A stretch of 64,000 bases of DNA from Flavobacterium sp. LHD-80 (GTDB lineage Bacteria; Bacteroidota; Bacteroidia; Flavobacteriales; Flavobacteriaceae), in NCBI RefSeq assembly GCF_030929605.1, contig NZ_JAVFVS010000011.1, forward strand, positions 124,001 to 188,000, given 5' to 3'. Under the pieces are notes generated by a model. That model was not told the origin of the DNA, ran no database searches, and saw nothing but the letters and a program-made list of their open reading frames with translations. The number at the start of each line of letters is the position of its first letter. Position 1 is the stretch's first letter. Positions 11,076 through 64,000 of this stretch are shown here, in pieces. Made by a program: the position numbers and the translations under genes.

Positions 11076-11184
11076 ATTAATTTAGAAAGAAAACAAAGTG
11101 TTTTTTAAGCATAATTTTTACAAAAGAAAATTTGTAGGTTATCTTGAATAACTTTAAAAAGATATTAAATAATATAAAGTAATT

Positions 11185-13061: not shown

Positions 13062-13071
13062 ATGCTTAAAT

Positions 13072-14577: not shown

Positions 14578-14578
14578 A

Positions 14579-15745: not shown

Positions 15746-15757
15746 ACTGAAATTTTA

Positions 15758-18596: not shown

Positions 18597-18597
18597 T

Positions 18598-19467: not shown

Positions 19468-19468
19468 T

Positions 19469-23221: not shown

Positions 23222-23239
23222 TCATATTAATCAAAAAAA

Positions 23240-33875: not shown

Positions 33876-33917
33876 ACATTTAGTCTTCGAAAATACTTCT
33901 TTAATTAAACTTCAAAA

Positions 33918-35207
33918 TTGGAAAAAGATATAATTTTAAAAGCTGAAAATATTTCTAAACAATATCGTTTAGGACAAGTAGGCACGGGAACTATTCGGCA
34001 TGATTTAAACCGTTGGTGGCATGAAATTCGTGGCAAGGAAAATCCCTATTTAAAGATCGGAGATGTAAATGATCGTTCCTCTAAAGGCACTTCAGAGTAT
34101 GTTTGGGCTTTGCAGGATATAAACTTTGAAGTTGAGCGTGGTGAAGTTTTAGGAATCATTGGTAAAAATGGTGCAGGAAAATCAACACTGTTAAAAATTT
34201 TATCTAAAGTTACAGCTCCCACGACTGGTAGTATAAAATCTCGTGGACGTATTGCATCACTTTTAGAAGTAGGGACTGGTTTTCATGGCGAAATGACAGG
34301 AAGAGAAAATATCTTTTTGAATGGCGCCATTCTTGGAATGACTAAAAAAGAAATTGCTTCGAAACTTGATGAAATTATTGAATTTTCAGGTTGTGAACGT
34401 TATATCGATACTCCAGTTAAAAGATATAGTTCAGGGATGACAGTTCGTTTGGCCTTTGCTGTGGCAGCATTTTTGGAGCCTGAAATTTTAGTCGTAGATG
34501 AGGTTTTAGCTGTTGGTGATGCTGAGTTTCAGAAAAAAGCAATTGGTAAAATGAAGGACATTTCTAAAGGTCAAGGACGCACTGTATTGTTTGTTAGTCA
34601 TAATATGGCAGCGGTGAAGCAGTTGTGCACAAAAGGAATAGTTATGGAGAATGGAAGGTTAGTTTTTCAGGGTGATATTGATGCAGCTTTAAATGCGTAT
34701 TTGATTAATTATGAAGGATATGATTCAACAAAGTTATTTGAGATTCAAAATAGAAGCGGTAATGGAAATGTTAGATTTCATGAATTTTTTATAGAAGATT
34801 TAGCTGGAAATCCTATAGATAAAATACTTACAGGAGATTCTGTTAATTTTGTTTTTATAATAAAAGTCAAAAAAAAGTCAAAAAAAATTAATCTTGGTTT
34901 TTCGTTGCATAATCAATATGAAGATGTATTAACTTATTTGTATAGTGATTTTCAGGATATTACTTTTAGTGGAGAAGAAACTGAATTGTTAAGTATTCGT
35001 TGTCAAATAAAACAATTTCCTTTTAATGATGGGAGAATTATTATTAAAGGGAGAATTGAAGTGGATGGTGTTGAATCAGACTGGTTAAAGGAACCATTAG
35101 CAATAATTGATGTTGAAAAAGGAAATTTTTATTCAACAGGAAAAATTAGTGAAATAAATACCCCGTTTTTAATCAAAGGCACATGGGAATCATCAAAAGA
35201 ATTGTAA
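33918..35207 (+). CDS. wzt: ABC-type polysaccharide exporter ATPase with C-terminal glycan domain
   Basis: This 429-residue ATPase starts at TTG 33918, since conserved sequence begins immediately. Walker A is GKNGAGKST (82-90), the signature is YSSGM (170-174), Walker B is ILVVDE (190-195), and the H-loop is in FVSHNM (225-230). Residues from about 270 form a beta-rich C-terminal domain like that of O9a-type Wzt, which reads the polymer's terminal cap. The insertion at residues 20-60 (RHDLNRWWHEIRGKENP) is common in Bacteroidota. Its 3' end overlaps the FkbM gene by 25 bases. Confidence 0.93.
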   Translation: MEKDIILKAENISKQYRLGQVGTGTIRHDLNRWWHEIRGKENPYLKIGDVNDRSSKGTSEYVWALQDINFEVERGEVLGIIGKNGAGKSTLLKILSKVTAPTTGSIKSRGRIASLLEVGTGFHGEMTGRENIFLNGAILGMTKKEIASKLDEIIEFSGCERYIDTPVKRYSSGMTVRLAFAVAAFLEPEILVVDEVLAVGDAEFQKKAIGKMKDISKGQGRTVLFVSHNMAAVKQLCTKGIVMENGRLVFQGDIDAALNAYLINYEGYDSTKLFEIQNRSGNGNVRFHEFFIEDLAGNPIDKILTGDSVNFVFIIKVKKKSKKINLGFSLHNQYEDVLTYLYSDFQDITFSGEETELLSIRCQIKQFPFNDGRIIIKGRIEVDGVESDWLKEPLAIIDVEKGNFYSTGKISEINTPFLIKGTWESSKEL

Positions 35208-47054: not shown

Positions 47055-48050
47055 ATGAGAATAGGAATGAATCCTCAAAAGGAGGAAAGAAAAGTGATAT
47101 TAAACACCAATCACAGAATTGTTATTGTGGTATATATTCCTAATGAAGAAGGATTCTACAAAGATTCATTAAGTGTTTTTAAGTTAAGCTTAGATTCTTT
47201 AATAGCGACTGTAAATTCTCATGTTGCAATTACAGTAATTAATAATGGTTCATATGAAAAAGTGTCAGATCTTTTAGGGCAATATTTTAAAGAAAAAAAG
47301 ATAGATACACTTATTTCACATAATTTAAATATCGGAAAAATTGATGCACAAATAGGAGCTGCTAGAGGGGCGAGAGAAAAACTTATTACCCTTACAGATG
47401 CGGATATTTTGTTCAGCAATGGATGGCAGGAGAAAGTAGAGGAAATTTTTTCTGTATTTCCAAACGTTGGTTCAGTATCTCCTATACCTGTTAGAACAGG
47501 CTTATATGCTGGAACAAGTTCTGTGTTAAAATATATTATTTTAAAGAAAATAAAAGTAAAATTTATTGAAATACCAGAAAATTTTAAAAATTTCAATAAA
47601 TTTTTATCAAGCATCAATTGGGATTTAGATACTGATAAAAACTTAAAATGGCCAGTAGTTGAGCATAATAAAATTAAGGCTATAATTGGTAGTGCGCATC
47701 AGGTGTTGACTATAGATCGTGATATTTTATTTACAACTTCTCCGTCAAATCCTTCCTTGACTCTTGTCGGAGGAAATTCAGAGCATAATTATGTAGATGT
47801 CCCTATTGATAAATCTGGAAAGCTTCGTCTAGCAACTTTTAATAATTATGCATTTCATATTGGCAATAAAGTCGAAGATTGGATGATTGATATACAGCAA
47901 AAAAATATAGAAAATACTCTAACTTCGAAAAGCAAATTTAATGTTCCCATATCATCAGATGATTTGTTTAATTCAAAATTAGATAATAAGGTATATGGTT
48001 TGAAAAAAAAGCTCTTGAAAAAACTATTTTCTTTTTTTTATGACAAATAG
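47055..48050 (+). CDS. GT2-like glycosyltransferase
   Basis: This 331-residue GT-A-like protein shows HRIVIVVYIPNEEGFYKDSL, ITVINNGS, NIGKIDAQIGAARGAREKLITLTDADILFSNGW (the DAD motif) and a region with GGNSEHNYVDVPID. It does not match the commonest GT2 subfamilies. ATG 47055 is used; ATG 47067 is also possible. Its 3' end overlaps the next gene by 11 bases. Confidence 0.78.
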   Translation: MRIGMNPQKEERKVILNTNHRIVIVVYIPNEEGFYKDSLSVFKLSLDSLIATVNSHVAITVINNGSYEKVSDLLGQYFKEKKIDTLISHNLNIGKIDAQIGAARGAREKLITLTDADILFSNGWQEKVEEIFSVFPNVGSVSPIPVRTGLYAGTSSVLKYIILKKIKVKFIEIPENFKNFNKFLSSINWDLDTDKNLKWPVVEHNKIKAIIGSAHQVLTIDRDILFTTSPSNPSLTLVGGNSEHNYVDVPIDKSGKLRLATFNNYAFHIGNKVEDWMIDIQQKNIENTLTSKSKFNVPISSDDLFNSKLDNKVYGLKKKLLKKLFSFFYDK

Positions 48051-49870: not shown

Positions 49871-50539
49871 ATGAAAACGATTGCAATTATACCAGCTCGA
49901 GGTGGTTCAAAACGACTCCCTTTTAAAAATATTCTTCCATTGGCAGGAATTCCAATTGTTGCACATAGTATTTTATATGCTAAAGCAAATAGCGATATAA
50001 TTGATGAAATTTATGTTTCTACCGATGATGAAGAGATTAAAAAAATTGCGATAGAATTTGGAGCAAAAGTCATAAACAGACCCGAGAGCATTTCTGGAGA
50101 TTTAGAACCGACAATTTCTGCGTTGAAGAATGTTTTGGAACAAATTGAAGATGAGGTTGAAAATGTAATTTTACTGCAACCCACAAATCCTTTAAGACAG
50201 GAAGATTTGCTTAAAGAAGCATTTAATTTGTTTAAATCTCAAAATTGTGAAAGTTTATTTACAGTTTCACAGAACCATCAAAAATTTGGAAAAATAGAAA
50301 AGAATAAATTTATTCCATTTAATTATAAAGTTGGACAAAGAAGCCAAGATTTAGAGCCAATATTTTATGAAAACGGATTGCTTTATATCACTAAATCCAA
50401 ATTGATTTTTGATGATATAATTATTTCAGAAAATGCTTTTCCATTCGAGATTAATCATATTTTTGCCAGCGTAGATATCGATACTCAAGAAGATTTTGAG
50501 TATGCTGAATATTTATTCCAAAAACATATAAAACCCTAA
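49871..50539 (+). CDS. neuA: CMP-sialic acid synthetase
   Basis: This 222-residue enzyme activates a nonulosonic acid with CTP. TIAIIPARGGSKRLPFKNI is the P-loop-like motif of CMP-NeuAc synthetases; YVSTDDEEIKKIA, RPESISGDLEPTISAL, LLQPTNPLRQ, SLFTV and ENGLLYI follow. It is first in a neuA-neuB-neuC cluster with 15 bp to neuB. A CMP-legionaminic acid synthetase is an alternative, but the NeuB next door looks specific for Neu5Ac. Confidence 0.93.
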   Translation: MKTIAIIPARGGSKRLPFKNILPLAGIPIVAHSILYAKANSDIIDEIYVSTDDEEIKKIAIEFGAKVINRPESISGDLEPTISALKNVLEQIEDEVENVILLQPTNPLRQEDLLKEAFNLFKSQNCESLFTVSQNHQKFGKIEKNKFIPFNYKVGQRSQDLEPIFYENGLLYITKSKLIFDDIIISENAFPFEINHIFASVDIDTQEDFEYAEYLFQKHIKP

Positions 50540-50554
50540 TTCATAACCTACTTT

Positions 50555-51595
50555 ATGAACCCATATATAGAAATTGCAGGTCGAAAAATTGGACCAGATT
50601 TTCCGCCCTTAGTTATTGCCGAAATAGGAATTAATCACGAAGGCTCTTTAAAAGTAGCTAAAGAAATGGTTGATGCTGCAAAAAGAGCAGGCGTTGAGGT
50701 TGTCAAACACCAAACGCATATTGTGGAAGACGAAATGTCTGGCGCAGCCAAAAAAGTGATTCCAGGAAATGCAGATGTTTCTATATATGAAATTATGGAG
50801 CGCTGTTCCTTAAATGAAACTGAGGAATTAGACCTTAAAAATTATGTCGAAAGTCAAGGCATGATTTTTATTTCGACACCGTTTTCACGTGCAGCTGCTG
50901 AAAGACTAAAGAAATTTGATATTCCAGCTTATAAAATTGGCTCAGGTGAATGTAATAATTATCCTTTATTAGAACACATCGCTTCTTTTGGAAAACCTGT
51001 TATTTTAAGTACAGGAATGAATACAATCGAAAGTGTTCAAAAAGCAGTTGCTGTTTTTGACAAACATAATATTCCAGTAGCACTTTTGCATACTACAAAT
51101 TTATATCCTACTCCAATACATTTGGTGCGTTATGGCGCGATGACTGAATTGCACGAAGCTTTTCCTGATAAAGTTTTCGGATTAAGTGATCATACTTTAA
51201 ATAATAATGCTTGTCTAGGTGCTGTGGCTCTTGGGGCAAGTATTTTAGAAAGACATTTTACAGATCATATGCAACGAACAGGTCCAGATATCGTTTGCAG
51301 TATGGACGAAAAGGCATGTCAGGAATTAATTATTTCAAGTGCTGAAATTGCCTTAATGCGTGGCGGAACTAAAAAGCCAGCCTTAGAAGAACAAGTAACA
51401 ATTGATTTTGCTTTTGCTACCGTTTGTAGCATTGCTTCAATTAAAAAAGGCGAGGTTTTTACAAAAGAAAACATCTGGGTTAAACGCCCAGGGACGGGTA
51501 AAATTCTTGCCGAAAAATTTGAAGATATTTTAGGCAAAACTGCCACAAGAAATATTGAAAATGATGAGCAATTAGACTTTTCAGATTTTGAGTAA
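50555..51595 (+). CDS. neuB: N-acetylneuraminate synthase
   Basis: This 346-residue enzyme condenses ManNAc with phosphoenolpyruvate to Neu5Ac. The TIM barrel includes [77 protein letters not shown] and [19 protein letters not shown]. The C-terminal SAF antifreeze-like domain runs from about residue 285 ([28 protein letters not shown]). The barrel follows neisserial SiaC/NeuB so closely that Neu5Ac is preferred over legionaminic or pseudaminic acid. It overlaps neuC by 8 bases. Confidence 0.94.
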
Positions 51596-52727
51596 TTCAA
51601 CAAAAAAAATTCTTTTCCTAACCGGAACACGGGCTGATTTTGGAAAAATAAAATCATTAATTTCAATTTTGGAAAGTCAGCCAGAATTTGAAGTTTTTGT
51701 ATTTGTAACCGGAATGCATCTGCAGGAAATCTATGGATATACTTTAATAGAAATTGAGCGTTGTAATTTTAAAAATGTAATTACGTTTAAAAATCATACG
51801 CACGAAACAACAATGGATTTGACTTTGGCTAAAACCATTGAAGGATTATCAAATTATTGTAAAGAGATAAATCCCGATATGATTGTAGTGCATGGCGACC
51901 GAGTTGAAACGTTAGCAGGAGCAATTGTAGGTTCTTTAAATAACATTTTAGTATCACATATTGAGGGAGGCGAAATTTCGGGAACTGTTGATGAGCTAAT
52001 TCGTCATAGTGTGAGTAAATTGAGCCATATACATTTTGTGTCAAATAAACTGGCAGCAAAAAGGCTTATTCAAATGGGTGAAATAAAAGAATCTGTTTTT
52101 GAAATTGGATCGCCTGATATTGATATTATGTTTTCTGATCAATTGCCAGACTTGGCTACGGCAAAATCGTATTACAAAATAGATTTTGAAAAGTATGCAA
52201 TTGTTATGTTTCATCCTGTTACAACTGAAATTAAAAATATGAAGCAATTTGCTGAGGCTTTCGTTTCTTCACTATTGCGAGACAATCATAATTACATTGT
52301 TATTTTTCCAAATAATGATCTAGGAAGCCAATATATTATTGAAGCTTATGAGAAATTAAAAGGGAACTCAAGATTTAGAATTTTTCCTTCTCTTAGGTTT
52401 GAATATTTTCTGACTTTATTAAAAAATAGCCAGTTTATTATTGGAAACAGTAGTGCTGGAATAAGAGAAGCTCCTTATTATGGAATTCCGATTATCAATA
52501 TCGGAACGCGTCAGCAAAATAGAGCACTTCATGCTGATATTATAAACACAGATTATTCTGAAAAGGGAATTGATCGATCACTTTCCATAATTGATTCTCA
52601 TAAAGTACAAATTATTCAAGATGATTTTGGCGAAGGGAACAGTAATGACTTGTTTTTAAAATGTCTTCAAAAAGAGGCGATATGGAAGTTAAATCATCAA
52701 AAACAATTTAGAGATCTAGGAATTTGA
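51588..52727 (+). CDS. neuC: UDP-GlcNAc 2-epimerase (hydrolysing)
   Basis: This 379-residue enzyme should convert UDP-GlcNAc to ManNAc and UDP, supplying NeuB. The start is TTG 51588 inside the end of neuB, because the conserved [19 protein letters not shown] comes right after it and no ATG is nearby. [44 protein letters not shown] and [21 protein letters not shown] are NeuC/WecB-family blocks. LegG (acting on UDP-diNAcBac) is a related option, but NeuB suggests the sialic-acid route. Confidence 0.92.
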
Positions 52728-52745
52728 TTTCAACAAAAACTACTT

Positions 52746-53510
52746 ATGAAAAATTTGTTCAAAAAATATACAACTTATGAAACTCGTTTAAAAATCAGAT
52801 TTAAATGGAGAAGTATAAAAGCTTTTTTCTATATGTTTGATTTAGACAAATTAGCGACTATTCATAAAACAGATAAAAACAGATATCATTTTTATACACA
52901 GCATTATCAAAAACATTTTAGGCCATATAAATTTAAAAAAATCAAGTTTTTTGAAATTGGAGTAGGAGGTTATGAAAACCCTATTTTAGGAGGAGAATCA
53001 CTTCGAATGTGGAAGTCTTTTTTTCCTTTTGCTAAAATATTTTCATTAGACATTTTTGATAAATCATTTCTGCAGGAAAGCCGAATTCAGATTTTTAAAG
53101 GAAGTCAAGTCGATGAAAAAGTATTAGGCGCAATTTGTGAGCAAGTAGGTGAGTTTGATTTAATAATTGATGACGGAAGCCATATTAATGAGCATGTAAT
53201 TAAATCATTTGAATTTCTATTTCCTAAATTAAAAAAAGGAGGAATTTATGTAATTGAAGACACCCAGACTTCTTATTGGGAAGAATATGGAGGGAATTCT
53301 GAAGATTTTAATACAAAAGGAACAATTTATCATTATTTTAAATCGTTGATAGATTGCTTAAATAACGAAGAGTTTTTATTGCCAGGTTACAAAAAGTCGT
53401 ATTATGATAAGCATATAATTTCGATGCACTTTTATCACAATATGATATTTATTTATAAAGGAGATAATAATGAACCGTCTAATAAATTAAGAAACAATCA
53501 GTTTAAATAA
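52746..53510 (+). CDS. Class I methyltransferase, macrocin-O-methyltransferase-like
   Basis: This 254-residue protein resembles MycE/TylF- and CmcI-like SAM methyltransferases: DLDKLATIHKTDKNRYHFYTQHY, KIKFFEIGVGGYENPILGGESLRMW (SAM motif), IFSLDIFDKS, DLIIDDGSHINEHVIKSFEFLFP with the metal-binding Asp pair, and YVIEDTQTSYWEEYGG. These enzymes are Mg-dependent sugar O-methyltransferases. Its place between neuC and fucosyltransferase-like genes suggests methylation of a glycan residue. Confidence 0.85.
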   Translation: MKNLFKKYTTYETRLKIRFKWRSIKAFFYMFDLDKLATIHKTDKNRYHFYTQHYQKHFRPYKFKKIKFFEIGVGGYENPILGGESLRMWKSFFPFAKIFSLDIFDKSFLQESRIQIFKGSQVDEKVLGAICEQVGEFDLIIDDGSHINEHVIKSFEFLFPKLKKGGIYVIEDTQTSYWEEYGGNSEDFNTKGTIYHYFKSLIDCLNNEEFLLPGYKKSYYDKHIISMHFYHNMIFIYKGDNNEPSNKLRNNQFK

Positions 53511-53512
53511 GA

Positions 53513-54421
53513 ATGATTACGTTTTCTAATCTTGGTAAAAAAGGAAATTTAGGGAATCAATTGTTCCAAATTGCATCAACTATTGGAATTGCAGAAAACA
53601 ATAATCATGAATATTGTTTTCCAAAATGGCAATTCTCAGAATATTTTAAATTTAATTTTAATGCTTGTTCCGATATTGAAGATTGGATTCAAGTAAAAGA
53701 ATATAAGTTTAATTACTATGAATGGGAATTAATTGATGGGAATTATGATTTATTTGGGTGGTTGCAAAGTGAAAAATATTTTGTAGAATCTAAAATAAAG
53801 GAAGCATTTCAATTTAACAGTCAATTTGAAAATGATTTAATCGAAAAGTATAAATTTTTATTTTCCAAAAAGACCATTTTAGTTAGTGTCAGAAGAGGAG
53901 ATTTTGTAAATAATCCCAATTATTTTCAATTGTCTTATCATTTTTATTTGACAGCGTTGATTTATCATTTTGAAAATTTAGAAGAATACAATATTGTTTT
54001 TACAAGTGATAATATAAGTTACTGTAAAAAGCATTTTTCGTTTCTTCCTAATGTTTTTTTTCTTGAAAATTTGAATCCGCTAGAACAGCTTTGTTTAGGT
54101 TCTAAATTGGATAATTATGTAATAAGTAATTCGACTTTTTCTTGGTGGCTGGCTTGGTTAGGCGAAAAAAAAGAAACAAAAATAATTCGGCCAGTTCAAA
54201 TATTTGACAATGAATATTCAAAAAAATATGATGAATCTGATTATTTTCCAAATCGATGGATTTCACATGATGATACTAAATATGATTTGCCTAATAAATA
54301 TTTAAAATTAAAAATTTATGGTTTTTTATATAATGCAGTTCAAAGAGTAAAATACATTTATAAAAAAAATAAAAAGTCATTAAAAAAAAGAATCAAAAAG
54401 CTTATAAATTATAACAAATAG
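53513..54421 (+). CDS. GT11-family alpha-1,2-fucosyltransferase-like protein
   Basis: This 302-residue protein has the GT11 order of motifs: NLGNQLFQIASTIGIAENN at the N-terminus, VSVRRGDFVNNPNYFQLSYHFY (GDP-fucose-binding VxxRRGD-type motif), YNIVFTSDN with WCKK-like ISYCKKHF, and ISNSTFSWWLAWLGE. These are the conserved blocks of bacterial and animal alpha-1,2-fucosyltransferases. Some GT11 members move other GDP or dTDP deoxysugars. It begins 2 bp after the methyltransferase. The GDP-fucose genes gmd and fcl are not in the window. Confidence 0.9.
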   Translation: MITFSNLGKKGNLGNQLFQIASTIGIAENNNHEYCFPKWQFSEYFKFNFNACSDIEDWIQVKEYKFNYYEWELIDGNYDLFGWLQSEKYFVESKIKEAFQFNSQFENDLIEKYKFLFSKKTILVSVRRGDFVNNPNYFQLSYHFYLTALIYHFENLEEYNIVFTSDNISYCKKHFSFLPNVFFLENLNPLEQLCLGSKLDNYVISNSTFSWWLAWLGEKKETKIIRPVQIFDNEYSKKYDESDYFPNRWISHDDTKYDLPNKYLKLKIYGFLYNAVQRVKYIYKKNKKSLKKRIKKLINYNK

Positions 54422-54533
54422 ATTTATAAAAAGTAAAGACGGATAATAGTGATTTCAGACTTGAAAATTTTGAATGTTTTCGAAAATAGAATACCTTGAC
54501 CTTTAACCATCAGTAAGATTTTAAGAATATTAA

Positions 54534-55508
54534 ATGTTAGTAAAAATAGAACGATATTTTAATGCCCCAGACTATAAAAGACAGACACCAAATTGTTCTA
54601 TGAAATGGGGTGATATTATTTTTACAGAAGAGAAAATTGATGAATGCGATTATCTAGTAATTCTTGATTATCCAAAAGAAGATTTCACTATTAAGGTTAA
54701 TAAAAATAATATTTTACATCTTTGTTTAGAACCGCCAAATGAATTTTCCAAATACAGGCAATATGCTAATAAAAATGTAAAGTGGATTTTCAATCAATTG
54801 GATATTAAAAAAAATAATATTCTCTCCCATGGCGCATTACCATGGCATATTAACAAAGATTTCGATTTTTTAAGCGAACTAAATGTCGAAACCTTATGCA
54901 AAGAAAATAGTATAGCCTGGATTACAAGTAATCAAAGAACATCGAAAGGACATAAAGCCCGAATGAAATTTTTGGATGAAATTAAATTAGAGCCTTTTGT
55001 GCATTTATACGGGAGAGGAATTCAGCCAATTCAAGATAAATGGGATGTTTTAAGTAAATCCAAATATGCAATTGCTTATGAAAATTTTCAAAACGATTTT
55101 TATTGGACTGAAAAAATAGCAGATTGTTTTTTAAGTTATACAATGCCTTTGTACTTTGGATGCAATAAAATAGAAAATTTTTTCCCTGCAAATTCTTACA
55201 TTCAAATAGATCCTAATGACAAGCATATTAAATTATTTTTAAAAGAAATTACGAAGTCTAATAAATGGGAGGAAAATTTGGATGCAATTTCAAAAGCAAG
55301 ACAATTAATTTTAAATGAATATCAATTGTTTCCTTTTCTATGCAATCAGATAAAATCATTTGAATTAGCAAAAGGAAACAATTTATCTTCAGAAAAAGAA
55401 TTGATTTCTTTTAAAGGAGGAAATGCTTATTTTGATAATTATCCGCTTAGTGTCGCGATCCAAAAGCAAGCATTAAAGATAATGGATAAAGTAGGAAGTA
55501 AATTCTAA
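54534..55508 (+). CDS. GT10-family (alpha-1,3/4-fucosyltransferase-like) protein
   Basis: This 324-residue protein contains, in order, HLCLEPPNEFSKYRQYANKNVKW, AWITSNQRTSKGHKARMKFLDEI, VHLYGRGIQPIQDKWDVLSKSKYAIAYENFQNDFYWTEKIADCFLSYTMPLYFGC and FPANSYIQIDPND. The block around KYAIAYEN with WTEKIADCF is the donor site of GT10 fucosyltransferases. It follows GT11 after a 112-bp gap with nothing clear in it. The presence of GT10 and GT11 next to neuABC is notable. Confidence 0.87.
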   Translation: MLVKIERYFNAPDYKRQTPNCSMKWGDIIFTEEKIDECDYLVILDYPKEDFTIKVNKNNILHLCLEPPNEFSKYRQYANKNVKWIFNQLDIKKNNILSHGALPWHINKDFDFLSELNVETLCKENSIAWITSNQRTSKGHKARMKFLDEIKLEPFVHLYGRGIQPIQDKWDVLSKSKYAIAYENFQNDFYWTEKIADCFLSYTMPLYFGCNKIENFFPANSYIQIDPNDKHIKLFLKEITKSNKWEENLDAISKARQLILNEYQLFPFLCNQIKSFELAKGNNLSSEKELISFKGGNAYFDNYPLSVAIQKQALKIMDKVGSKF

Positions 55509-55574
55509 TAATAAGATTTTCAAAATTTGATAAATAGATTTATATCGAAACGAGATTATATAGTAGAAAATAAA

Positions 55575-56972
55575 ATGAAAAAATTAGGAATCGTAATAAC
55601 CGATGGTGTCGGATTTAGAAATTTTGTCATGAGTGATTTTCTTGCAGAAGCAGTAAGTCAGTTTGATAAAATTATTATCTATTCTGGCTTGTCTGAAAGT
55701 TGTTATCCAGATTTAAATAATCCAAAACTTGAAATTAAGGAACTTGCTGTTTTTAAAGAAGGAAAAGCAACTTGGGCCTTTAGAAAATGGAAAGAAATTG
55801 CTCATTTGCAAAAAAATAAAAAATTTTATGGAATGAATGATAATCTCGTTTCGGGTTATCCTAAAAACAATTCTCTTCGATCTTTATTAATAAAGGGAAT
55901 ATATCTTTTTACAAAATACATTAATGGTAATTCAAGTATGTTATTTGCCGAAAAGCTTCAGTTTTTATCTTTTTCCAAAAATAGAATTACAAAAGAATAT
56001 ATTGAATTATTAAAAACAGACACTCCTTCGCAATTATTTTTTACCCATCAACGACCTCCGTATTTGGCTCCTTTTTTATATGCTGCGATTAAATCAAAAA
56101 TTCCAACGAGTACTTTTATTTTTAGTTGGGATAATTTAGCTTCAAAAGGAAGAATGCTGGGTACTTTTGACAAGTTTTTGGTTTGGAGTAAATTAATGAA
56201 AGAAGAGTTGCTTTATTTTTATTCAAATACAAAAGAACAAGATGTACAAATTGTTGGGACGCCACAATTTGAGCCTTATGTTTTAGATGAATATAAATCT
56301 TCAAAAGAAAGTTTCTTAAGTAAATTTGGGTTAGATAAGAGTAAAAAAATAATTTGTTATAGTTGTGCCGATGTTTCTATTGGACCAAATGATCCTATAG
56401 TGATTAGAACTATTGCTGAGGCTATTCGAAATAATGAAATTAAATTTGATGTGCAGCTTTTGGTCAGAACTTCTCCTGCAGAGGATGACAGCAGGTTTAA
56501 AATACTACGTGACGAATTTCCAGAAATTATTTGGAATGTACCAAAATGGGTTTTAACAAGAGAAAATCATCAAGAAAGCTGGTCTCAGAGAATTCCAAGC
56601 CAAGAAGATATCATGGATTTGAGAGCACTGTTAGAAAATTCAGATCTTAGCATTAATATGTGTTCTACGATGAGTTTGGATTTCATGCTTTTTGATAAAC
56701 CTGTAATTAATACTGTTTTTGGAAATCTTGAAAATGGTTTATATAATGATCAGCGATTTTTAAATTATGATCATTATAAAAAAGTAATTGACGGAAATGC
56801 TGTTACAATTGCCAAAGATAAAAGGAAACTTGTTGATCAAATTAATAAGGCTTTGAATAATCCTGAGGAAAGAAAACAGGAAAGAATTGAAATGATTAAT
56901 TTGCAAATCGGACAAAGTCTTCAAGGAACAAGCAAAAGAATTGCTTCAACTCTAGCAAAATTCAATGAGTAA
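55575..56972 (+). CDS. GT-B superfamily glycosyltransferase, unclassified
   Basis: The ATG at 55575 (MKKLGIVITDGVGFRNF) is preferred over TTG 55527, giving 465 residues. The layout is GT-B-like: FIFSWDNLASKGRM and FDKFLVWSKLMKEELL at mid-protein, then ICYSCADVSIG and QLLVRTSPAEDDSRF, and a late INMCSTMSLDFMLFDKPVINT donor-like block similar to CDP-glycerol glycerophosphotransferase and sialyl/Kdo-type enzymes. I cannot name its donor. Since no recognised sialyltransferase family is otherwise seen here, it is one candidate. It overlaps the next gene by 8 bases. Confidence 0.7.
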   Translation: MKKLGIVITDGVGFRNFVMSDFLAEAVSQFDKIIIYSGLSESCYPDLNNPKLEIKELAVFKEGKATWAFRKWKEIAHLQKNKKFYGMNDNLVSGYPKNNSLRSLLIKGIYLFTKYINGNSSMLFAEKLQFLSFSKNRITKEYIELLKTDTPSQLFFTHQRPPYLAPFLYAAIKSKIPTSTFIFSWDNLASKGRMLGTFDKFLVWSKLMKEELLYFYSNTKEQDVQIVGTPQFEPYVLDEYKSSKESFLSKFGLDKSKKIICYSCADVSIGPNDPIVIRTIAEAIRNNEIKFDVQLLVRTSPAEDDSRFKILRDEFPEIIWNVPKWVLTRENHQESWSQRIPSQEDIMDLRALLENSDLSINMCSTMSLDFMLFDKPVINTVFGNLENGLYNDQRFLNYDHYKKVIDGNAVTIAKDKRKLVDQINKALNNPEERKQERIEMINLQIGQSLQGTSKRIASTLAKFNE

Positions 56973-58038
56973 GAAAATAGCAATTATCTGTAATTATGTA
57001 CTTCTTCCAGAACGAGTTGGAGGAATGGATCATTTTTTTTGGAGCTTTGATAAAAAATGTAAAGAAAATAATATTGAAATTGATTGGTTTTTCCCCAATA
57101 GGTCAAACCACGGGAATTATTCAGAGTTGAATATTTATGCCTCGGGACCGAATGTAGAAAACAATTTTCTAACTTTTCTCGAACAAAACAAACCTAAGTA
57201 CACCTATGTTATTACTCATTTTGTTGAGTTGTGTACGCCATTTTTTAAAAAAGTAAAGCAATTTTCAGAAGCAGAAATTATTACTGTTGATCATAATCCT
57301 AGGCCTTTAAATGGATATGCATTAAAGAAAAGAATAAATAAAAAACTAAAGGGATCACTTTTTTCAAAATATATAAATCTCTTTGTCGGTGTTTCTGATT
57401 ATACTGTAAATGAAATTTTAAAAGATTTTGGCTCACATTTAAAATCTAAAACTAAAACAATTTATAATGGAGTAATTATAGATAAAATTGTAGTTCGAGA
57501 GAATAGAAATGCTTTTAAACCAACTTTTTTAGTAGCCTCACACATTAGAGAATCAAAAGGAATACAAGATTTAATCGAATCTGTTTCGTTTCTTCCAGAT
57601 AAAATAAAAGAAGAAATTAAGATTGATATTTATGGAGATGGTCCTTATAAGAATGAACTGTTAGAAAAAATTGAACAACATTCACTTCAAAATTGCTTTG
57701 ATTTTAAAGGGAGCAAACCCAATTTGAATGAGATTTTTTTTCATTATGATTATATGGTGCAACCTACGCACATGGAATGTTTCAGTTTATCAATCTTAGA
57801 AAGCTTGGCAGCGAATGTTCCTGTAATAACTACTAATGTTGGAGGAAATGCAGAGGTTATAAAGAATGCCAAAAACGGATATATGTTTGAAGCAAAAGAT
57901 ACAAAGGCCTTGGCTCAAATTCTTGAAGATATTTATTTAGGAAACAAAAAGATATCGATTAATACGAGGGAATTAATTTGCAATTCCTTTTCTTTGCCGA
58001 AAATGGTAAAAGACCATTTTGAACTGCTTTACAAATAG
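56965..58038 (+). CDS. GT4 family glycosyltransferase
   Basis: This 357-residue GT-B enzyme has KIAIICNYVLLPERVGGMDHFFW, GVSDYTVNEILKDFG, IYNGVIIDKI, VASHIRESKGIQDLIE, IDIYGDGPYKNEL and QPTHMECFSLSILESLAANVPVI with the EX7E motif. It is a typical retaining GT4. It precedes the MBOAT acyltransferase by 28 bp. Confidence 0.88.
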   Translation: MSKKIAIICNYVLLPERVGGMDHFFWSFDKKCKENNIEIDWFFPNRSNHGNYSELNIYASGPNVENNFLTFLEQNKPKYTYVITHFVELCTPFFKKVKQFSEAEIITVDHNPRPLNGYALKKRINKKLKGSLFSKYINLFVGVSDYTVNEILKDFGSHLKSKTKTIYNGVIIDKIVVRENRNAFKPTFLVASHIRESKGIQDLIESVSFLPDKIKEEIKIDIYGDGPYKNELLEKIEQHSLQNCFDFKGSKPNLNEIFFHYDYMVQPTHMECFSLSILESLAANVPVITTNVGGNAEVIKNAKNGYMFEAKDTKALAQILEDIYLGNKKISINTRELICNSFSLPKMVKDHFELLYK

Positions 58039-58066: not shown

Positions 58067-59500
58067 ATGTTTTTTAACTCATTAGCATTTGCTATTTTCC
58101 TGCCAATCGTTTTTTTCTTGTATTGGTTTGTCTTTAATAAAACCAAAAGCACACAAAATGCTTTATTAATTATAGCCAGTTATTATTTTTATTCCTGCTG
58201 GGATTGGAGATTTTTGTTTTTGCTTGTTTTCTCAACATTTCTTGATTACTATACAGGAATCCAAATCGAAAAAGGGAAATCTGAAAACAGCCGTAAATTT
58301 TGGTTTTGGCTAAGTATCATAGTAAATCTCGGATTTTTAGGAATTTTTAAATACTATAACTTTTTTGCGGCTTCATTTTCAGATCTATTAAGTATAGTTG
58401 GGTTTAAGGCAAGTCCAATTTTATTAAAAGTTATTCTGCCAGTTGGAATTTCATTCTATACTTTTCACGGACTTTCATATGTTATAGATATTTATTACAA
58501 AAGAATTAAAGCCGAATATAATTTTGTCGATTATTCTTTGTTTGTCAGTTATTTTCCTCTTTTAGTAGCTGGTCCAATTGAAAGAGCTACACATTTGTTG
58601 CCTCAACTAAAAGTAAAGAGAGAATTCAATTTTCAAACTGCAAAAGAAGGTGTTTATCAAATTATTTGGGGTTTGGTGAAAAAAGTAGTTATTGCTGATA
58701 CTTGCGCAACTTATGCAAACGCTATTTTTGATAATTATACGTCGATGAATTCATTTTCATTAATTCTAGGTGCTGTTTATTTTGCATTTCAGATTTATGG
58801 AGATTTTTCAGGTTACTCCGATATCGCTTTAGGAGTTTCAAAACTCTTTGGTTTAGATTTATTGCGAAATTTCAATTATCCTTATTTTTCGAGAGATATT
58901 GCCGAGTTTTGGCGTCGCTGGCACATTTCACTTTCGTCTTGGTTTCGCGATTATTTATATATTCCACTGGGCGGAAGCAAAGGCGGACTTTGGATGAAAA
59001 TCAGAAATACATTTATCATTTTCCTTGTAAGTGGATTTTGGCATGGAGCAAATTGGACGTATGTAGTTTGGGGATTCATAAATGCAGTTTATTTTCTGCC
59101 TTTGCTTTTATCCAACAGCAACCGAAATAACATGGATGCTATTGAATTAAAATTTGATTTTGATTCTGTCAAAGTTGTAATGAGTATTTTATATACTTTT
59201 TTACTGACTTGTGCGGCTTGGATATTTTTTAGAGCTAAAACAATAACTGATGCCGTTTTGTATATAAAACGAATTTTTTCAAATAGAGATCTTAGCTTTC
59301 AATATTTAGAAAACGAACGATACAGTTATGAACTATTGGGATTGATTGGTTTGTTTTTACTCATCGAATGGAATAATCGAAATAAGGAAGAACCTCTTTC
59401 AGGGAAAAGAAGTTTATTGAAGATCGCTTTAGCAATAATAGCAATAATGGCTTTCGGAACCTTTTCAGATTACAAAGAATTTATATATTTTCAGTTTTAA
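58067..59500 (+). CDS. MBOAT-family membrane O-acyltransferase (AlgI-like)
   Basis: This 477-residue membrane protein starts MFFNSLAFAIFLPIVFFLYWFVF and has about ten helices. LPVGISFYTFHGLSYVIDIYYKRI, VAGPIERATHLLPQL, YGDFSGYSDIALGVSKLFG, RRWHISLSSWFRDYLYIPLGGS and SGFWHGANWTYVVWG (the catalytic His) are the AlgI/DltB/PatA signatures. It would bring an acyl group across the inner membrane for transfer to the glycan. It shares one base with the SGNH-like gene, its likely partner. Confidence 0.94.
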   Translation: MFFNSLAFAIFLPIVFFLYWFVFNKTKSTQNALLIIASYYFYSCWDWRFLFLLVFSTFLDYYTGIQIEKGKSENSRKFWFWLSIIVNLGFLGIFKYYNFFAASFSDLLSIVGFKASPILLKVILPVGISFYTFHGLSYVIDIYYKRIKAEYNFVDYSLFVSYFPLLVAGPIERATHLLPQLKVKREFNFQTAKEGVYQIIWGLVKKVVIADTCATYANAIFDNYTSMNSFSLILGAVYFAFQIYGDFSGYSDIALGVSKLFGLDLLRNFNYPYFSRDIAEFWRRWHISLSSWFRDYLYIPLGGSKGGLWMKIRNTFIIFLVSGFWHGANWTYVVWGFINAVYFLPLLLSNSNRNNMDAIELKFDFDSVKVVMSILYTFLLTCAAWIFFRAKTITDAVLYIKRIFSNRDLSFQYLENERYSYELLGLIGLFLLIEWNNRNKEEPLSGKRSLLKIALAIIAIMAFGTFSDYKEFIYFQF

Positions 59501-60381
59501 TGAAGAATTTTTTAATTTATATAGCAAAAATTTCAGCTTTAGTTATTCTCATTTCTGTAGCATTAGATGGACTTTATACGTATATCTTTCTCCAATCTAA
59601 AAATAGAGGGAAAATTGAAACTGTTTTTAATTCAAATGCACAAAAGTATGATGTTGTTATTTTAGGTTCTTCAAGAGCAAACAATCATTTTGTATCACAA
59701 ATGTTTGAAGATAAAGGATTAAAAACTTTCAATTACGGAATGAGTGGTGGACATTTATTTGAGGCGTCATTAATGTTGAAATTAATGATTGAAAGAAAAT
59801 ATACAATTAAAAATGTAATTCTTGAGGCCGATTTAAATTTGGCTAGCGAGCATATGGCTGATGGTATTTCAGCTCTTTTTCTGCCTTATATTCATAACTC
59901 GAATATCATTAAAGAGCATTTTTCAGGACAAGAAAATTTCAATCAATTATATTATATTCCATTTTATCGATATATTAAATATGAAACAAAAATTGGTGTT
60001 CGAGAGACGTTTTTCACAGTAATTCATAAAAAAACTAATAAACTAGATAATTTAGGATATTACCCTTTGCAAAAAAATAAAAATGGTAATATGAAAAATA
60101 ATATAATTAATTTAAATCTACTTCCTCAGAATAAGTATTACGAAGAAATAAAAAACATTTGCAAAGCAAATCACATTAATTTTATTGCTGTCATGACTCC
60201 AATGTGCGAAAACGTTGCAGGGATGGATTATTTTGAAAAGGTAAAAAAAGCATATCCGGAAATTCATAATTACGAAAATGTTGTTGTTGAGGATAAATAT
60301 TTTTCATCCTGTGGGCATATGACAGATACTGGAGCAAAATTATTTACAGCCAGAATTTTAAAAGATTTTTTCCAAAAATAA
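59500..60381 (+). CDS. SGNH-hydrolase-like partner of the MBOAT acyltransferase
   Basis: This 293-residue protein has an N-terminal membrane anchor (about residues 5-28) and then an extracytoplasmic domain. DVVILGSSRANNHF (Gly56-Ser57-Ser58) resembles SGNH block I with the nucleophile Ser, NYGMSGGHLFEA resembles block II, and FSSCGHMTDTGAK near the end supplies a block-V-like His273. This architecture matches DltD/AlgJ/PatB-type enzymes that pass an acyl group from the MBOAT to a polymer. The DxxH of classical SGNH is not perfect. Translational coupling to the MBOAT supports the pairing. Confidence 0.72.
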   Translation: MKNFLIYIAKISALVILISVALDGLYTYIFLQSKNRGKIETVFNSNAQKYDVVILGSSRANNHFVSQMFEDKGLKTFNYGMSGGHLFEASLMLKLMIERKYTIKNVILEADLNLASEHMADGISALFLPYIHNSNIIKEHFSGQENFNQLYYIPFYRYIKYETKIGVRETFFTVIHKKTNKLDNLGYYPLQKNKNGNMKNNIINLNLLPQNKYYEEIKNICKANHINFIAVMTPMCENVAGMDYFEKVKKAYPEIHNYENVVVEDKYFSSCGHMTDTGAKLFTARILKDFFQK

Positions 60382-60385
60382 AAAC

Positions 60386-61528
60386 ATGAAGATAGCTTTT
60401 TTGACGCCAGAATATCCACATGCCCAAACTGGTAATTCAGGGGGCATTGGCACAAGTATCAAAAATTTAGCAATTGGTCTTTTAGCTCAAGGAGTTTCAG
60501 TACGAGTTCTTGTTTATGGTCAAAAAGAAGATAATTTTTTTGATGATAATGGCATTTTAATTCAGCAGATTAAAAACATTAAAGTAAAAGGATTATCTTG
60601 GTGGTTTACCAGAAAAAAGCTTGAAAGAATAATTAATACATTATATCTTAATAAAGAAATTGATATAGTTGAAGCGCCTGATTGGACAGGAATTACCTCT
60701 TTTATTAAGCCTAATAAATGTCCATTAATAATTAGGTTAAATGGTTCTGATACTTATTTTTGTCATTTAGATAATCGTCCTGTAAAATGGATAAATAAGT
60801 TTCATGAAAAAAGGGCTTTGAAAAATGCAGACGCCTTACTATCTGTGAGTCAGTTTACAGCTGATGTAACAAATTCTATTTTTGGTTTCAATAAAAAATT
60901 TGAAATTATTCCAAATCCTATTGATTTTCAATTGTTTCGGAATAGCAAGTATAATGATAAATGCGAAAATATTCTATACTTTGGAAGCCTTATTCGGAAA
61001 AAAGGACTTTTAGAATTGCCTTTGATTTTTAATAAGGTTATCAAAAAAAAACCAGATGCAAAGTTGATTTTAGTAGGTAATGATGTTCCAGATATTATAT
61101 CTGGAAATGCATCAACATGGCAAATGATGCAAAAACTTTTTTCTGAACAAGCATTAAAAAATGTCGAATATCTTGGAAGTGTCCCATATCATGAAATAAA
61201 GCAAAAAATTCAAGAATCAAAAATATGTGTTTTTCCATCTTTTGCTGAGGCTTTTCCAGTTTCTTGGTTAGAAGCGATGGCAATGGAAAAGGCAATTGTC
61301 GCATCAAACATTGGCTGGGCTTCTGAAATGATTAGTGAAGGAGAAAATGGCTTTTTGGTTTATCCAAAAGATCATGATTTGTATGCTCAAAGAATAATGG
61401 AGTTTTTAAACAACAAGGAACTTTGTTTTGAAACAGGAAAAGCAGCAAGAAAAAAAGTTGAAGAAGCTTTTGATATTAATGTTTTGGCAAAGAGAAATAT
61501 AGAGTTTTATAAAAAAGTGAAAGTATAA
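60386..61528 (+). CDS. GT4 family glycosyltransferase
   Basis: This 380-residue GT-B enzyme begins MKIAFLTPEYPHAQTGNSGGIGTSIKNLAIGLL, a start common in GT4. PLIIRLNGSDTYF, SVSQFTADVTN, LYFGSLIRKKGLLELPLIF, KLILVGND and SFAEAFPVSWLEAMAMEKAIV (EX7E) follow. It lies 4 bp after the SGNH gene and 12 bp before a GT2, in the same unit. Confidence 0.9.
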   Translation: MKIAFLTPEYPHAQTGNSGGIGTSIKNLAIGLLAQGVSVRVLVYGQKEDNFFDDNGILIQQIKNIKVKGLSWWFTRKKLERIINTLYLNKEIDIVEAPDWTGITSFIKPNKCPLIIRLNGSDTYFCHLDNRPVKWINKFHEKRALKNADALLSVSQFTADVTNSIFGFNKKFEIIPNPIDFQLFRNSKYNDKCENILYFGSLIRKKGLLELPLIFNKVIKKKPDAKLILVGNDVPDIISGNASTWQMMQKLFSEQALKNVEYLGSVPYHEIKQKIQESKICVFPSFAEAFPVSWLEAMAMEKAIVASNIGWASEMISEGENGFLVYPKDHDLYAQRIMEFLNNKELCFETGKAARKKVEEAFDINVLAKRNIEFYKKVKV

Positions 61529-61540: not shown

Positions 61541-63079
61541 ATGATACTAAAGGAGTTTATTGCAAGTACCGGAGAAATTATACTTTACAACGGCAAGCCT
61601 AATTTTGAAAAATTAGATGCCTTGATTTTAGGAGCGGGAGATATTTGGCACAGTTCATTTGAGCAGGGATATAAAAATGCTTTTCCAGAATTAGTGTATC
61701 AGACTGCCATTTTTTTTATTTTTATTAATGATTTTGATAATCTTGATGAATGTGTAAGCTGGAGAGTCAATCCAAATCAATTTGCGGTTCGTAAATCTGT
61801 TTGGGAACAGCTACAAGGTTTTGATTCTGAATATCAAAATATTCAATTGCAAGCATTAGATTTTGGATATAATGCGTTACGAAATTCAGCTGCGGTACCT
61901 CTATATATAAAAGGGCTTTTTGATATTAATCAAAAAGAAGAAATTAATATATCAGCAAAAGATAGATACGTTTTCTTCAGGAAGAATTTCAAAATGGATC
62001 ATTCTGTTTTTATGTTATACAGAAAAGGATTTTGGAAATGGAAAGAATGGAATGCTCTATTTTATGCAAAGAAAAATTTCAATTTATCAGCTAAAAAGCC
62101 TTTGATTAAACCTCGTACGTTATTACCAATCGAGGGACAACCAACAGTAAGTTATATTATTCCTACGATGATGCGTCAGGAGTTTACTTTAAAATTATTA
62201 CAAGATTTAGCAGTCCAGACTTATCCACTTTCTCAAGTTGTTATTGTTGATGCAACTCCAGCAAATGCAAGAGATGAAAAGTTATATCAAAAGCAAGATT
62301 TTCCTTTTGAACTAATTGTTAAATGGCAGGAAACTAAAGGAAGCTGCAGAGCCAGAAATGAGGCTATTGAATTGTGTACAGGTGATTATATTGTGTTTGG
62401 AGATGATGATATTCGAGTATTTCCAAATTTTATAGAAAATCATATAAAAATTCTGCAGACTTATAAAGCGGGTGCATGCAATGGCTTAGATATACTTGCA
62501 GATAATCAGCAACAAAATTTGACAGATCTAAAGAAAAAACTGAAAAAAGTAGATAAAAGTAGATGGAAAGTTGGAGCCAGTGGTAATTTTAGCAATGCAA
62601 ATTCTTGTGCTAAATCAGAATATGTTAAAAAATTAATAGGTAATGATATTAATTTTGATGGAGGTTATGGAGAAGACAGCGATTTTGGGTTATCATTATT
62701 CAAGTTAGGGCAAATTGTTATTCATAACCCTTTCTCAGCTAACCTGCACTTAAAACCACCAGTAGGAGGTTATCGATTTTGGGGCAATCAAGCTAAAATT
62801 ATAGGTAAGAAAAGAAAAACGCAACCGTGGGAATTAGATAATCCTGTAAAGTTTATTCGTCCCGTGCCAAGTCCTACCGTTATGTATGGAATTGTTAAGC
62901 ATTTTGAAACGCAACAAGTAGTCGAATATAAACATAAACACTTTTTTCTTTATCTTTTCAAAGGTTCAAAAAAAGGCTTTTTATATCGATTTTTACGGCT
63001 TCCATATAAAAATCTGCAATTCAAGAAATCACTTTTTTATGCAAAAAAATTAAATAATCTAGGAATTAGATATAAATAA
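61541..63079 (+). CDS. GT2 glycosyltransferase with extra N-terminal half-domain
   Basis: This 512-residue protein has a full GT2 domain from about residue 200: TVSYIIPTMMRQEFTLKLLQDLA, VVIVDATPANARDE, KGSCRARNEAIELCTGDYIVFGDDDIRVFPNF (DDD), then GGYGEDSDFGLSLFKLGQIV. The first 180 residues contain SWRVNPNQFAVRKSVWEQLQGFDSEYQ and LDFGYNALRNSAAVPLYIKGL, which resemble the acceptor-side half of a GT2 without a DxD motif. It may be a fusion with a degenerate transferase. The gene is longer than usual for GT2. Confidence 0.82.
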   Translation: MILKEFIASTGEIILYNGKPNFEKLDALILGAGDIWHSSFEQGYKNAFPELVYQTAIFFIFINDFDNLDECVSWRVNPNQFAVRKSVWEQLQGFDSEYQNIQLQALDFGYNALRNSAAVPLYIKGLFDINQKEEINISAKDRYVFFRKNFKMDHSVFMLYRKGFWKWKEWNALFYAKKNFNLSAKKPLIKPRTLLPIEGQPTVSYIIPTMMRQEFTLKLLQDLAVQTYPLSQVVIVDATPANARDEKLYQKQDFPFELIVKWQETKGSCRARNEAIELCTGDYIVFGDDDIRVFPNFIENHIKILQTYKAGACNGLDILADNQQQNLTDLKKKLKKVDKSRWKVGASGNFSNANSCAKSEYVKKLIGNDINFDGGYGEDSDFGLSLFKLGQIVIHNPFSANLHLKPPVGGYRFWGNQAKIIGKKRKTQPWELDNPVKFIRPVPSPTVMYGIVKHFETQQVVEYKHKHFFLYLFKGSKKGFLYRFLRLPYKNLQFKKSLFYAKKLNNLGIRYK

Positions 63080-63082: not shown

Positions 63083-64000
63083 ATGATTTTTTCATTAGTT
63101 ATATGTACCTATATGCGACCAGAATCGTTACTAGCATTACTGGAATCGGTTCAACAACAAAGTTTATATCCAAACGAGATTTTAATAATTGATGGATCGA
63201 AAGATTTGGAAACAGAAAATGTCTTAAAGCAAAAACATTTTCAAAATCTAAATTATTTTTTAGTCTCAGAGGAAAATCGTGGTTTGACCAGGCAACGAAA
63301 TTTCGGAATATCGAAATTAGATTCAAGTTCAGAAATTGTTTGTTTTTTAGATGATGATACTGTTTTAGAACAAAAATATTTTGAAGAAATTATAAAATCA
63401 TTTCAAGCTGATAGCAATGTTGTTGGTGTTGGAGGTGTTGCGATTAACGAAAATAAATGGAAGCTTCAAGACAAGAACAAATATTATAACAAAAAGAAAT
63501 TTTATTTGTTTGAAGAATACTTTTATCGTGAAAGCTTAAGAAATCTAGTGAGAAATTATCTAGGTTTGGGATCTAATCTAGAACCTGGAAGAATGCCACT
63601 TTACTCTCATGCTAAACCACCAGCATTTCCTCAAACAGGAAAAACTTATAATGTAGATTTGCTTATTGGCATGTCGATGTCTTTTAGAAAAGAAATAGTT
63701 GAAAAAATTAAATTTTCTAAGTTCTTTGACGGCTATAGTTTGTACGAAGATGCAGATTTTAGTTTAAGAGCCTTGCAATTTGGGAAAAATGTAATTAATA
63801 CAAATGTCAAGTTAAATCATTTTCATGCCCTTTCAGGAAGACCAAATAAATATAGTTATGGAAAAATGGTAGTGAAAAATGGTTGGTATGTTTGGCACGT
63901 AAAAAACGCACAACCAGTAGTAATAGATCGGTTAAAATGGCATTTAATAACTTTACTTTTGATATTCCTAAGATTTTGTAATGTCTTTACGAGTAAAAAG
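63083..64000 (+). CDS. GT2 family glycosyltransferase, 5' part (runs off window)
   Basis: An open frame from ATG 63083 (MIFSLVICTYMRPESLLALLESV) continues without a stop for 306 codons to the window edge, so the gene is truncated by the boundary. EILIIDGSKDLETENV, ENRGLTRQRNFGISKL, IVCFLDDDTVLEQKYFEEI (DDD), FPQTGKTYNVDLLIGMSMSF and YEDADFSLRALQFG mark a complete GT2 catalytic domain. Residues from about 285 turn hydrophobic (LITLLLIFLRF), as in GT2 enzymes with C-terminal membrane helices. It starts 3 bp after the previous stop. Confidence 0.88.
   Translation, partial: MIFSLVICTYMRPESLLALLESVQQQSLYPNEILIIDGSKDLETENVLKQKHFQNLNYFLVSEENRGLTRQRNFGISKLDSSSEIVCFLDDDTVLEQKYFEEIIKSFQADSNVVGVGGVAINENKWKLQDKNKYYNKKKFYLFEEYFYRESLRNLVRNYLGLGSNLEPGRMPLYSHAKPPAFPQTGKTYNVDLLIGMSMSFRKEIVEKIKFSKFFDGYSLYEDADFSLRALQFGKNVINTNVKLNHFHALSGRPNKYSYGKMVVKNGWYVWHVKNAQPVVIDRLKWHLITLLLIFLRFCNVFTSKK

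Follow-up and report, generated by a model that had tools for sequence, protein, structure and literature searches.

The stretch of DNA analysed here, 64,000 nucleotides of Flavobacterium sp. LHD-80 (hereafter the window; C11:124001-188000 of a 4.96 Mb genome, 99.96% complete, 30.2% G+C), contains a complete neuA-neuB-neuC set for the synthesis of a nonulosonate, two fucosyltransferase-family genes of glycosyltransferase (GT) families 11 and 10 and, directly downstream, a gene at 55575-56972 whose product, of predicted GT-B fold, is the best candidate for the sialic-acid transferase of the locus. These genes and their surroundings all lie on the + strand. A first-pass annotation of the sequence had described neuA, neuB and neuC as complete and adjacent to GT11 and GT10 enzymes, and an open reading frame (ORF) check of the window bears this out: all five genes are intact ORFs, the synthesis genes fall into families PF02348, PF03102 and PF02350, and both GT assignments exceed their cut-offs. 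That reading of the locus was right in part, but it missed the likely transferase immediately downstream. The central features are as follows.

49871-50539, + strand: neuA, CMP-nonulosonate cytidylyltransferase, 222 residues; PF02348 108.5 bits; PDB CMP-sialate synthetases, best E 9.3e-29
50555-51595, + strand: neuB, N-acetylneuraminic acid (Neu5Ac)-type synthase, 346 residues; PF03102 224.6 bits; TIGR03569 401 against a cut-off of 399.65; 1xuu NeuB/SiaC 465.6 bits
51588-52727, + strand: neuC, hydrolysing UDP-sugar 2-epimerase, 379 residues, TTG start; PF02350 255 bits; TIGR03568 403.4 against a cut-off of 235.9
52746-53510, + strand: methyltransferase-like protein between neuC and the GT11 gene, 254 residues; PF13578 23.2 bits, under the cut-off of 26.3
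53513-54421, + strand: GT11-family putative fucosyltransferase, 302 residues; PF01531 59.1 against a cut-off of 23.9
54534-55508, + strand: GT10-family putative fucosyltransferase, 324 residues; PF00852 48 against a cut-off of 23.9
55575-56972, + strand: candidate nonulosonate (sialic acid) transferase, predicted GT-B fold, 465 residues (the mechanical ORF begins upstream, at TTG 55527); linkage to NeuB, predicted fold, PF04464 26.3 bits

Synthesis genes and their probable product

NeuB, encoded by the only PF03102 gene of the genome, is 63% identical to the Neisseria meningitidis enzyme (SiaC/NeuB), and 25 of the 26 active-site and loop sites compared are equal, the sites being numbered as in the PDB chain. 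Asn184 is present, and the loop is nearly identical to that of the meningococcal enzyme. In a comparison of the Campylobacter jejuni neuraminic (Neu), legionaminic (Leg) and pseudaminic (Pse) acid synthases (PMC7371886), the active residues are described as strictly conserved in the Neu pathway and as differing in the Leg and Pse pathways; the differences fall chiefly at positions 70-85 and at a Gly/Phe position, which corresponds to 133 in the numbering used here, and at position 184 Neu enzymes have Asn or Tyr, Leg enzymes Tyr and Pse enzymes Ser.

Among the NeuB matches retained (those covering >70% of the window protein), Gly133, Asn184 and Arg314 occur together in 49/49 proteins of the window type. 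A second group, here termed alt, combines Gly133 with Thr184 and Lys314 in all 36 members, at 27-33% identity to meningococcal NeuB, and of the 29 other NeuB-family proteins from the same genome draw 10 carry Phe133 and Ser184, the Pse signature, and others Gly133, Thr184 and Arg314. Window-type NeuB (78-86% identical) was found in 16 other genomes of a set of 149 from the same family, own genome included, with NeuB at 59-60% identity in two more. The best PDB match of NeuC is 4zht (184.4 bits), the epimerase part of the bifunctional N-acetylglucosamine (GlcNAc) 2-epimerase/N-acetylmannosamine (ManNAc) kinase, and NeuA reaches 159.9 bits with the PseF model TIGR03584, under its cut-off of 205.7, with no NCBIfam model over its cut-off. 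NeuB exceeds its NCBIfam equivalog cut-off narrowly, NeuC by a wide margin. Judged from the NeuB comparison, the product of the window genes is most likely Neu5Ac. The likeness to N. meningitidis ends at the level of the locus, since here the neuA-neuB-neuC order lies inside a long mixed polysaccharide locus and none of the sialyltransferase families searched was found.

A candidate transferase family beside nonulosonate synthases

The first-pass annotation had recognised no classical sialyltransferase, and a Pfam scan of 20 window proteins agrees with it. A whole-genome search with PF07922, PF11477, PF06002 and PF07388 (GT52, GT80, GT42 and GT38) likewise gave no match, with controls that worked for PF07388 only (it rang in 3/14, the other three in none), and classical sialyltransferase folds are absent from the best 50 matches of either fold list, an absence that in itself excludes nothing.

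The protein at 55575-56972 is placed beside the synthesis genes by its genomic linkage. A homologue of 55527-56972 accompanies 14 of 16 close neuB loci, at 25-54% identity, and directly adjoins neuC in 10 of the 16. A profile built from such homologues (A1) and searched in the 149 genomes detected the family in 62, with one match each; a PF03102 gene is present in 61 of these 62 and lies within 15 kb in 57 (median 2.3 kb; Fisher p 4e-20). Among the matches listed, the named carriers belong for the most part to the Flavobacteriaceae (Flavobacterium, Lutibacter and Polaribacter, for example). The transferase gene is also present, at 55% identity, in a record labelled as a Bdellovibrio metagenome-assembled genome (L175), reflecting either misbinned Flavobacteriaceae DNA or transfer.

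The AlphaFold2 model of the candidate (predicted local distance difference test score 93.4, from 68 aligned sequences) retrieved GT-B folds in a VIA-align search, with UDP-GlcNAc 2-epimerases in the top rows (Z 23.8, root-mean-square deviation 3.4 over 322 residues, 12% identity) together with TarL (8va1; Z 20.4, 16% identity over 323 residues) and TagF (Z 19.3). Searched by sequence, the family matched TarL alone among solved structures (E 0.019), and the sole Pfam family of the window protein at E up to 0.001 is the TagF/TarL family PF04464, matched C-terminally over residues 334-441 with 26.3 bits against a cut-off of 22.1. PF04464 enzymes use CDP-glycerol or CDP-ribitol, i.e. cytidine-nucleotide donors. 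The candidate is nevertheless unlike TagF/TarL in that its neighbours are nonulosonate genes and in that a PF04464 match at E 0.001 was obtained for only 26 of the 68 members of its family.

A further remote homology connects the candidate to the BFO_1060 family (NF046086), for which a profile-profile comparison with hhalign gave a probability of 97% and a pairwise E of 9e-11, although the window protein itself scores only 39.2 bits, far under the cut-off of 200. Of 395 genomes from the phylum, 12 contain a member of this family over the cut-off. Four of its 14 loci were read at length; each holds a synthase bearing the Pse signature, and dehydratase- and aminotransferase-like genes are among the neighbours. 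The remaining loci, with short flanks, show a dehydratase- or aminotransferase-like ORF in some cases and nothing recognisable in the rest. At L199:9199-12974, from a genome of this genus, a PseI-type synthase (507 bits, cut-off 340) heads a row in which a BFO_1060-family protein comes next and a member of the candidate family after it. Among the papers listed in literature searches, no title or abstract opening describes such a transferase family, and a search for BFO_1060 found none.

The synthesis module beside the transferase changes from relative to relative. The 80 named loci compared, the best 80 of 518 relatives, were chosen by the transferase itself, so that its presence in them is no evidence; the nonulosonate module they carry is of the window type (Neu) in 33, alt in 36, neuC only in four and neither in seven, the 11 loci with no NeuB hit bearing no Neu/alt label. 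On a quick tree of the transferases (LG+G4, SH-aLRT, with long-branch warnings) this label changes 17 times, well-supported branches forcing at least 15 for the alt group, and 17 changes recur in a separate 76-row tree from which 8 divergent transferase rows of the 84 labelled were dropped. Among the nearest relatives of the window transferase, that of F. resistens (83%) stands beside an alt module and that of Flavobacterium sp. Root420 (83%) beside a Neu one. An AsnB-like amidotransferase occurs in 19/36 alt loci and in none of the 33 named Neu loci. In the alt loci themselves (L104:4347-9945 and 35 others), the Lys314 NeuB differs in its loop from the Neu and Pse enzymes and from the other Thr184 enzymes in the comparison, and its product is possibly an undescribed nonulosonate.

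A third arrangement, present in 15 genomes, places NeuB-family frames of 292-306 residues at 66-1,710 bp from the transferase. At L205:10629-12652, the example of this arrangement that was read, a 291-residue NeuB lacking the C-terminal part stands directly before a member of the transferase family and is preceded by a 384-residue protein that joins a CMP-sugar synthetase-like half (TIGR01670 133.6 bits, cut-off 106.95) to a phosphatase half (KDN-9-phosphatase model NF058599 126.4, under 180); by its sequence, this module is 3-deoxy-D-glycero-D-galacto-nonulosonic acid (KDN)-like.

Comparable exchange is described for Tannerella forsythia (PMC6120980 and PMC6388019): CMP-Pse and CMP-Leg modules replace each other between strains, and the GT-B transferase gene beside them adjoins pseI; the general pattern is therefore already known. 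Compared by description, GtfS (Tanf_01245) and TFUB4_00887 of T. forsythia resemble the candidate in being encoded as GT-B transferases beside nonulosonate genes. The same sources report the Tannerella transferases as donor-stringent, whereas the candidate family has no residue that clearly follows donor type.

This last point was examined column by column, since a strict CMP-Neu5Ac transferase should have residues that follow module type. In a closest-opposite-pair test a single column stood out, position 94 of the window ORF, which is Leu in 47 of 48 Neu rows and divided among alt rows (20 Leu, 16 Met), none of 300 flips scoring as high. The same test yielded no such column in five neighbouring transferase families (p 0.17-0.80), and top-ten-column sums were raised in four of the five (gt4a p 0.000, gt4b 0.003, g480 0.027, gt2M 0.030; gt2L 0.357). 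Position 94 was set aside as a specificity site, being non-significant on phylogenetically independent pairs (about 2.9 of 13 in the same direction, 0 opposite, median p 0.25). Across 943 column-residue tests the most one-sided reached about 4.3 of 13 pairs against 0.1 the other way, too few for a claim, and within the alt loci Met at position 94 has no link to the presence of AsnB (Fisher p 0.50). As no residue clearly tracks module type, the enzyme either tolerates several donors or is not the nonulosonate transferase; in the reading preferred here, the candidate would tolerate different nonulosonates.

On this evidence it is proposed, tentatively and with doubt somewhat outweighing confidence, that 55575-56972 represents a family of CMP-nonulosonate transferases not described before. 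The family would be widespread in Flavobacteriaceae, would have the BFO_1060 family and PF04464 as remote relatives, and would accept Neu5Ac and at least one other nonulosonate.

Fucose genes, proposed mechanism and competing readings

The first-pass annotation had noted that gmd and fcl are not in the window, which is right as far as seen, and the genome search it proposed locates gmd on another contig (C5:532137-533201; 567.5 bits, cut-off 415), about 75 bp from an fcl-like ORF whose match to the GDP-fucose synthase model NF047922, at 482 bits, falls just below the cut-off of 500. With both genes present, the genome can probably make GDP-fucose. The GT11 match spans positions 162-295 of 298 in PF01531 and the GT10 match 4-128 of 182 in PF00852; both proteins are called divergent because these models are covered only in part. 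Known GT10 and GT11 fucosyltransferases occur in Helicobacter and in animals, and the window proteins share their families and conserved C-terminal stretches while diverging otherwise. The stretches SVRRGDF and NSTFSWW are invariant in three aligned GT11 sequences, and YENF and YWTEK are kept in three aligned GT10 sequences. Among solved structures, GT10 matches FUT9 (8d0o; E 1.3e-11, over 126 residues only) and the alpha-1,3-fucosyltransferase FucT (2nzw; E 5.6e-6), and GT11 matches none up to E 0.5.

Across the 149 genomes, PF00852 is found in five and PF01531 in 10, and the two coincide in this genome only; a NeuB-family gene lies within 15 kb of GT10 in 4/5 and of GT11 in 5/10 (own included). 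Of the 80 named loci, two (F. erciyesense, 73%; F. ajazii, 75%) have a homologue of the window GT10, which in both lies between neuC and the candidate transferase; three have a homologue of the window GT11. The two enzymes may use GDP-L-fucose on the same glycan.

The best explanation of the locus, held with about as much confidence as doubt, is that Neu5Ac is made here, transferred by the GT-B protein and accompanied by fucose added by GT10 and GT11. NeuC would convert UDP-GlcNAc to ManNAc, NeuB would condense ManNAc with phosphoenolpyruvate to Neu5Ac and NeuA would activate this to CMP-Neu5Ac; the GT-B enzyme would then move Neu5Ac onto a surface glycan built by neighbouring GT2 and GT4 enzymes, to which GT11 and GT10 would add fucose from GDP-fucose supplied by gmd and fcl elsewhere in the genome. 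The evidence for this is computed, namely the gene content, the Neu5Ac-type NeuB, gmd with the fcl-like gene, the tight genomic association of the GT-B family with nonulosonate synthases and its predicted fold.

Several observations weigh against this explanation. The family is absent from 25 of 86 genomes that have PF03102; in G138 its copy lies 11 kb from neuB and carries one in-frame stop, and no copy is seen in G015, which is 84% complete. The fold matches of the predicted model amount to a general GT-B likeness in which UDP-GlcNAc 2-epimerases lead. In PMC6388019, an H-P pair is given an important part in the binding of CMP-Neu5Ac by other bacterial sialyltransferases. The candidate, unlike the BFO_1060 family, has S-P: S-P or C-P stands in 83/83 rows of A1 and A3 (the window protein with 67 of the 80 named homologues), and H-P in 10/10 BFO_1060-type rows (A4, 10 of the 14 NF046086 loci). 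Other conserved glycosyltransferases of the locus are likewise found beside the module, in 67-78 of the 80 named loci, and the linkage figure from 149 genomes covers the candidate family alone. The same family stands beside different synthase types, and after correction for relatedness no residue clearly tracks the type. For the divergent GT10 and GT11 enzymes, the donors are putative. Finally, genomic linkage does not equal activity.

One alternative takes Neu5Ac synthesis as given and assigns the transfer to another enzyme, for instance the GT2-like protein at 47055-48050, with the GT-B protein adding an adjacent sugar. No glycosyltransferase family among those listed is specific to Neu5Ac modules, the most enriched being precisely the 47055 type (30/50 Neu against 6/36 alt loci, p 6e-5), and a GT-B protein that stays while the synthase module changes is what an enzyme handling an unchanging neighbour sugar would look like. 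However, the 47055-type family is missing from 20 of 50 Neu loci, whereas the GT-B family follows NeuB-family genes over three synthase types, including the short synthases described above in 15 genomes. This alternative is accordingly considered rather unlikely, though worth keeping in mind.

Transfer of Neu5Ac by the GT-B protein remains the preferred reading, and the nature of the resulting glycan can be considered against the earlier proposal of Lewis or blood-group-like mimicry, in which GT11 and GT10 make H or Lewis determinants on a Gal-GlcNAc chain with a Neu5Ac cap. The likeness of GT10 to FUT9 and 2nzw, the presence of gmd, the fcl-like gene and the Neu5Ac pathway, and the co-occurrence of both fucosyltransferase families in one of 149 genomes speak for it. 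Against this, no enzyme for a type 1 or type 2 (Gal-GlcNAc) chain was identified, the FUT9 similarity is confined to the 126 residues already mentioned, linkage is unreadable from GT10 and GT11 genes so divergent, and the nearest transferase homologues are carried by Flavobacterium (for example F. resistens, F. hercynium and Flavobacterium sp. Root420). Moreover, close relatives have a module of another type in place of the Neu5Ac one (the 36 alt against 33 Neu loci), and the locus therefore fits variable surface antigens better than imitation of a vertebrate sugar. Weakened by this exchange, host mimicry is set aside as the leading reading and judged improbable; what stands of the first-pass interpretation is the Neu5Ac-type pathway rather than a legionaminic or pseudaminic acid one, the capacity for GDP-fucose and the pairing of two fucosyltransferase-family genes in one locus, and not the mimicry. 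Within the Flavobacteriaceae, the O-antigen of Cellulophaga fucicola contains pseudaminic acid within its repeating unit (PMC3210612), and thus resembles the present case as a surface polysaccharide with a nonulosonate, though with Pse rather than Neu5Ac and no fucose in the structure given there.

The chance that legionaminic acid or another nonulosonate is made instead of Neu5Ac is small: NeuC cannot settle the type because an alt NeuC also passes TIGR03568 (386 bits), LegC-like aminotransferase and 4,6-dehydratase-like genes do occur elsewhere in the window (11185, 25642, 27247, 30890, 38024), and Asn184 by itself does not decide, since the L042 NeuB (58% identical to the window enzyme) keeps it beside a different loop and a dehydratase-like neighbour gene; yet the window NeuB matches the meningococcal enzyme in its loop as well as in its residues, and those genes lie 11-38 kb away with none over the LegC, PseB, PseC or FnlA cut-off. 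The NeuB residues and loop weaken this reading.

Surrounding genes and significance

The methyltransferase-like gene at 52746-53510 has homologues in 3 of 18 neuB contexts and in 7 of the 80 named loci. Downstream of the candidate transferase, the locus continues with genes that are for the most part conserved in the named loci, some homologues of the last three being below 35% identity.

56965-58038, + strand: GT4-type glycosyltransferase, directly after the candidate; PF00534 105.8 bits; homologue in 78/80 named loci
58067-59500, + strand: MBOAT O-acyltransferase; PF03062 105.7 bits; homologue in 25/80
59500-60381, + strand: protein with no Pfam match; homologue in 25/80
60386-61528, + strand: GT4; PF00534 107.3 bits; homologue in 74/80
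61541-63079, + strand: GT2-type protein; PF00535 58.6 bits; homologue in 72/80
63083-64000, + strand: GT2-like ORF cut by the window end; homologue in 67/80

Past the window end follow a methyltransferase-like gene, two GT4-type genes, a Wzy_C protein and an initiating sugar transferase. Elsewhere in the window, two export systems share the locus (6214-16996 and 33009-35207): a Poly_export/SLBB protein and a Wzz-type protein together with a flippase and a Wzy_C protein, and an ABC-2 transporter pair whose ATPase has a near-threshold Wzt_C domain. Tandem FdtA-type genes (PF05523, 176 and 173 bits) followed by acetyltransferase-like and aminotransferase-like genes at 18189-20572 probably constitute a pathway to a dTDP-3-acetamido sugar in which the isomerase is, oddly, duplicated. 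At 21828-24367, a HisH-type gene, an AglZ/HisF2 acetamidino-modification gene (339.7 bits, cut-off 310) and an N-acetyl sugar amidotransferase gene (298.4, cut-off 203.2) likely serve a sugar bearing an acetamidino group.

The locus is a real one for Neu5Ac and a probable one for fucose, and the joint presence of sialic acid and fucose genes in a bacterium need not imply host mimicry. Beyond a few families, little is known of nonulosonate transferases, and the GT-B family offers a direct candidate for the attachment of sialic acid in Flavobacteriaceae. If this assignment is true, whole modules (Neu5Ac, the Lys314 alt type and the KDN-like short synthase) would be exchangeable beside one transferase, varying the surface sugar of these bacteria, and their repeated exchange would supply natural pairs for the study of donor tolerance, useful in turn for making sialylated compounds.

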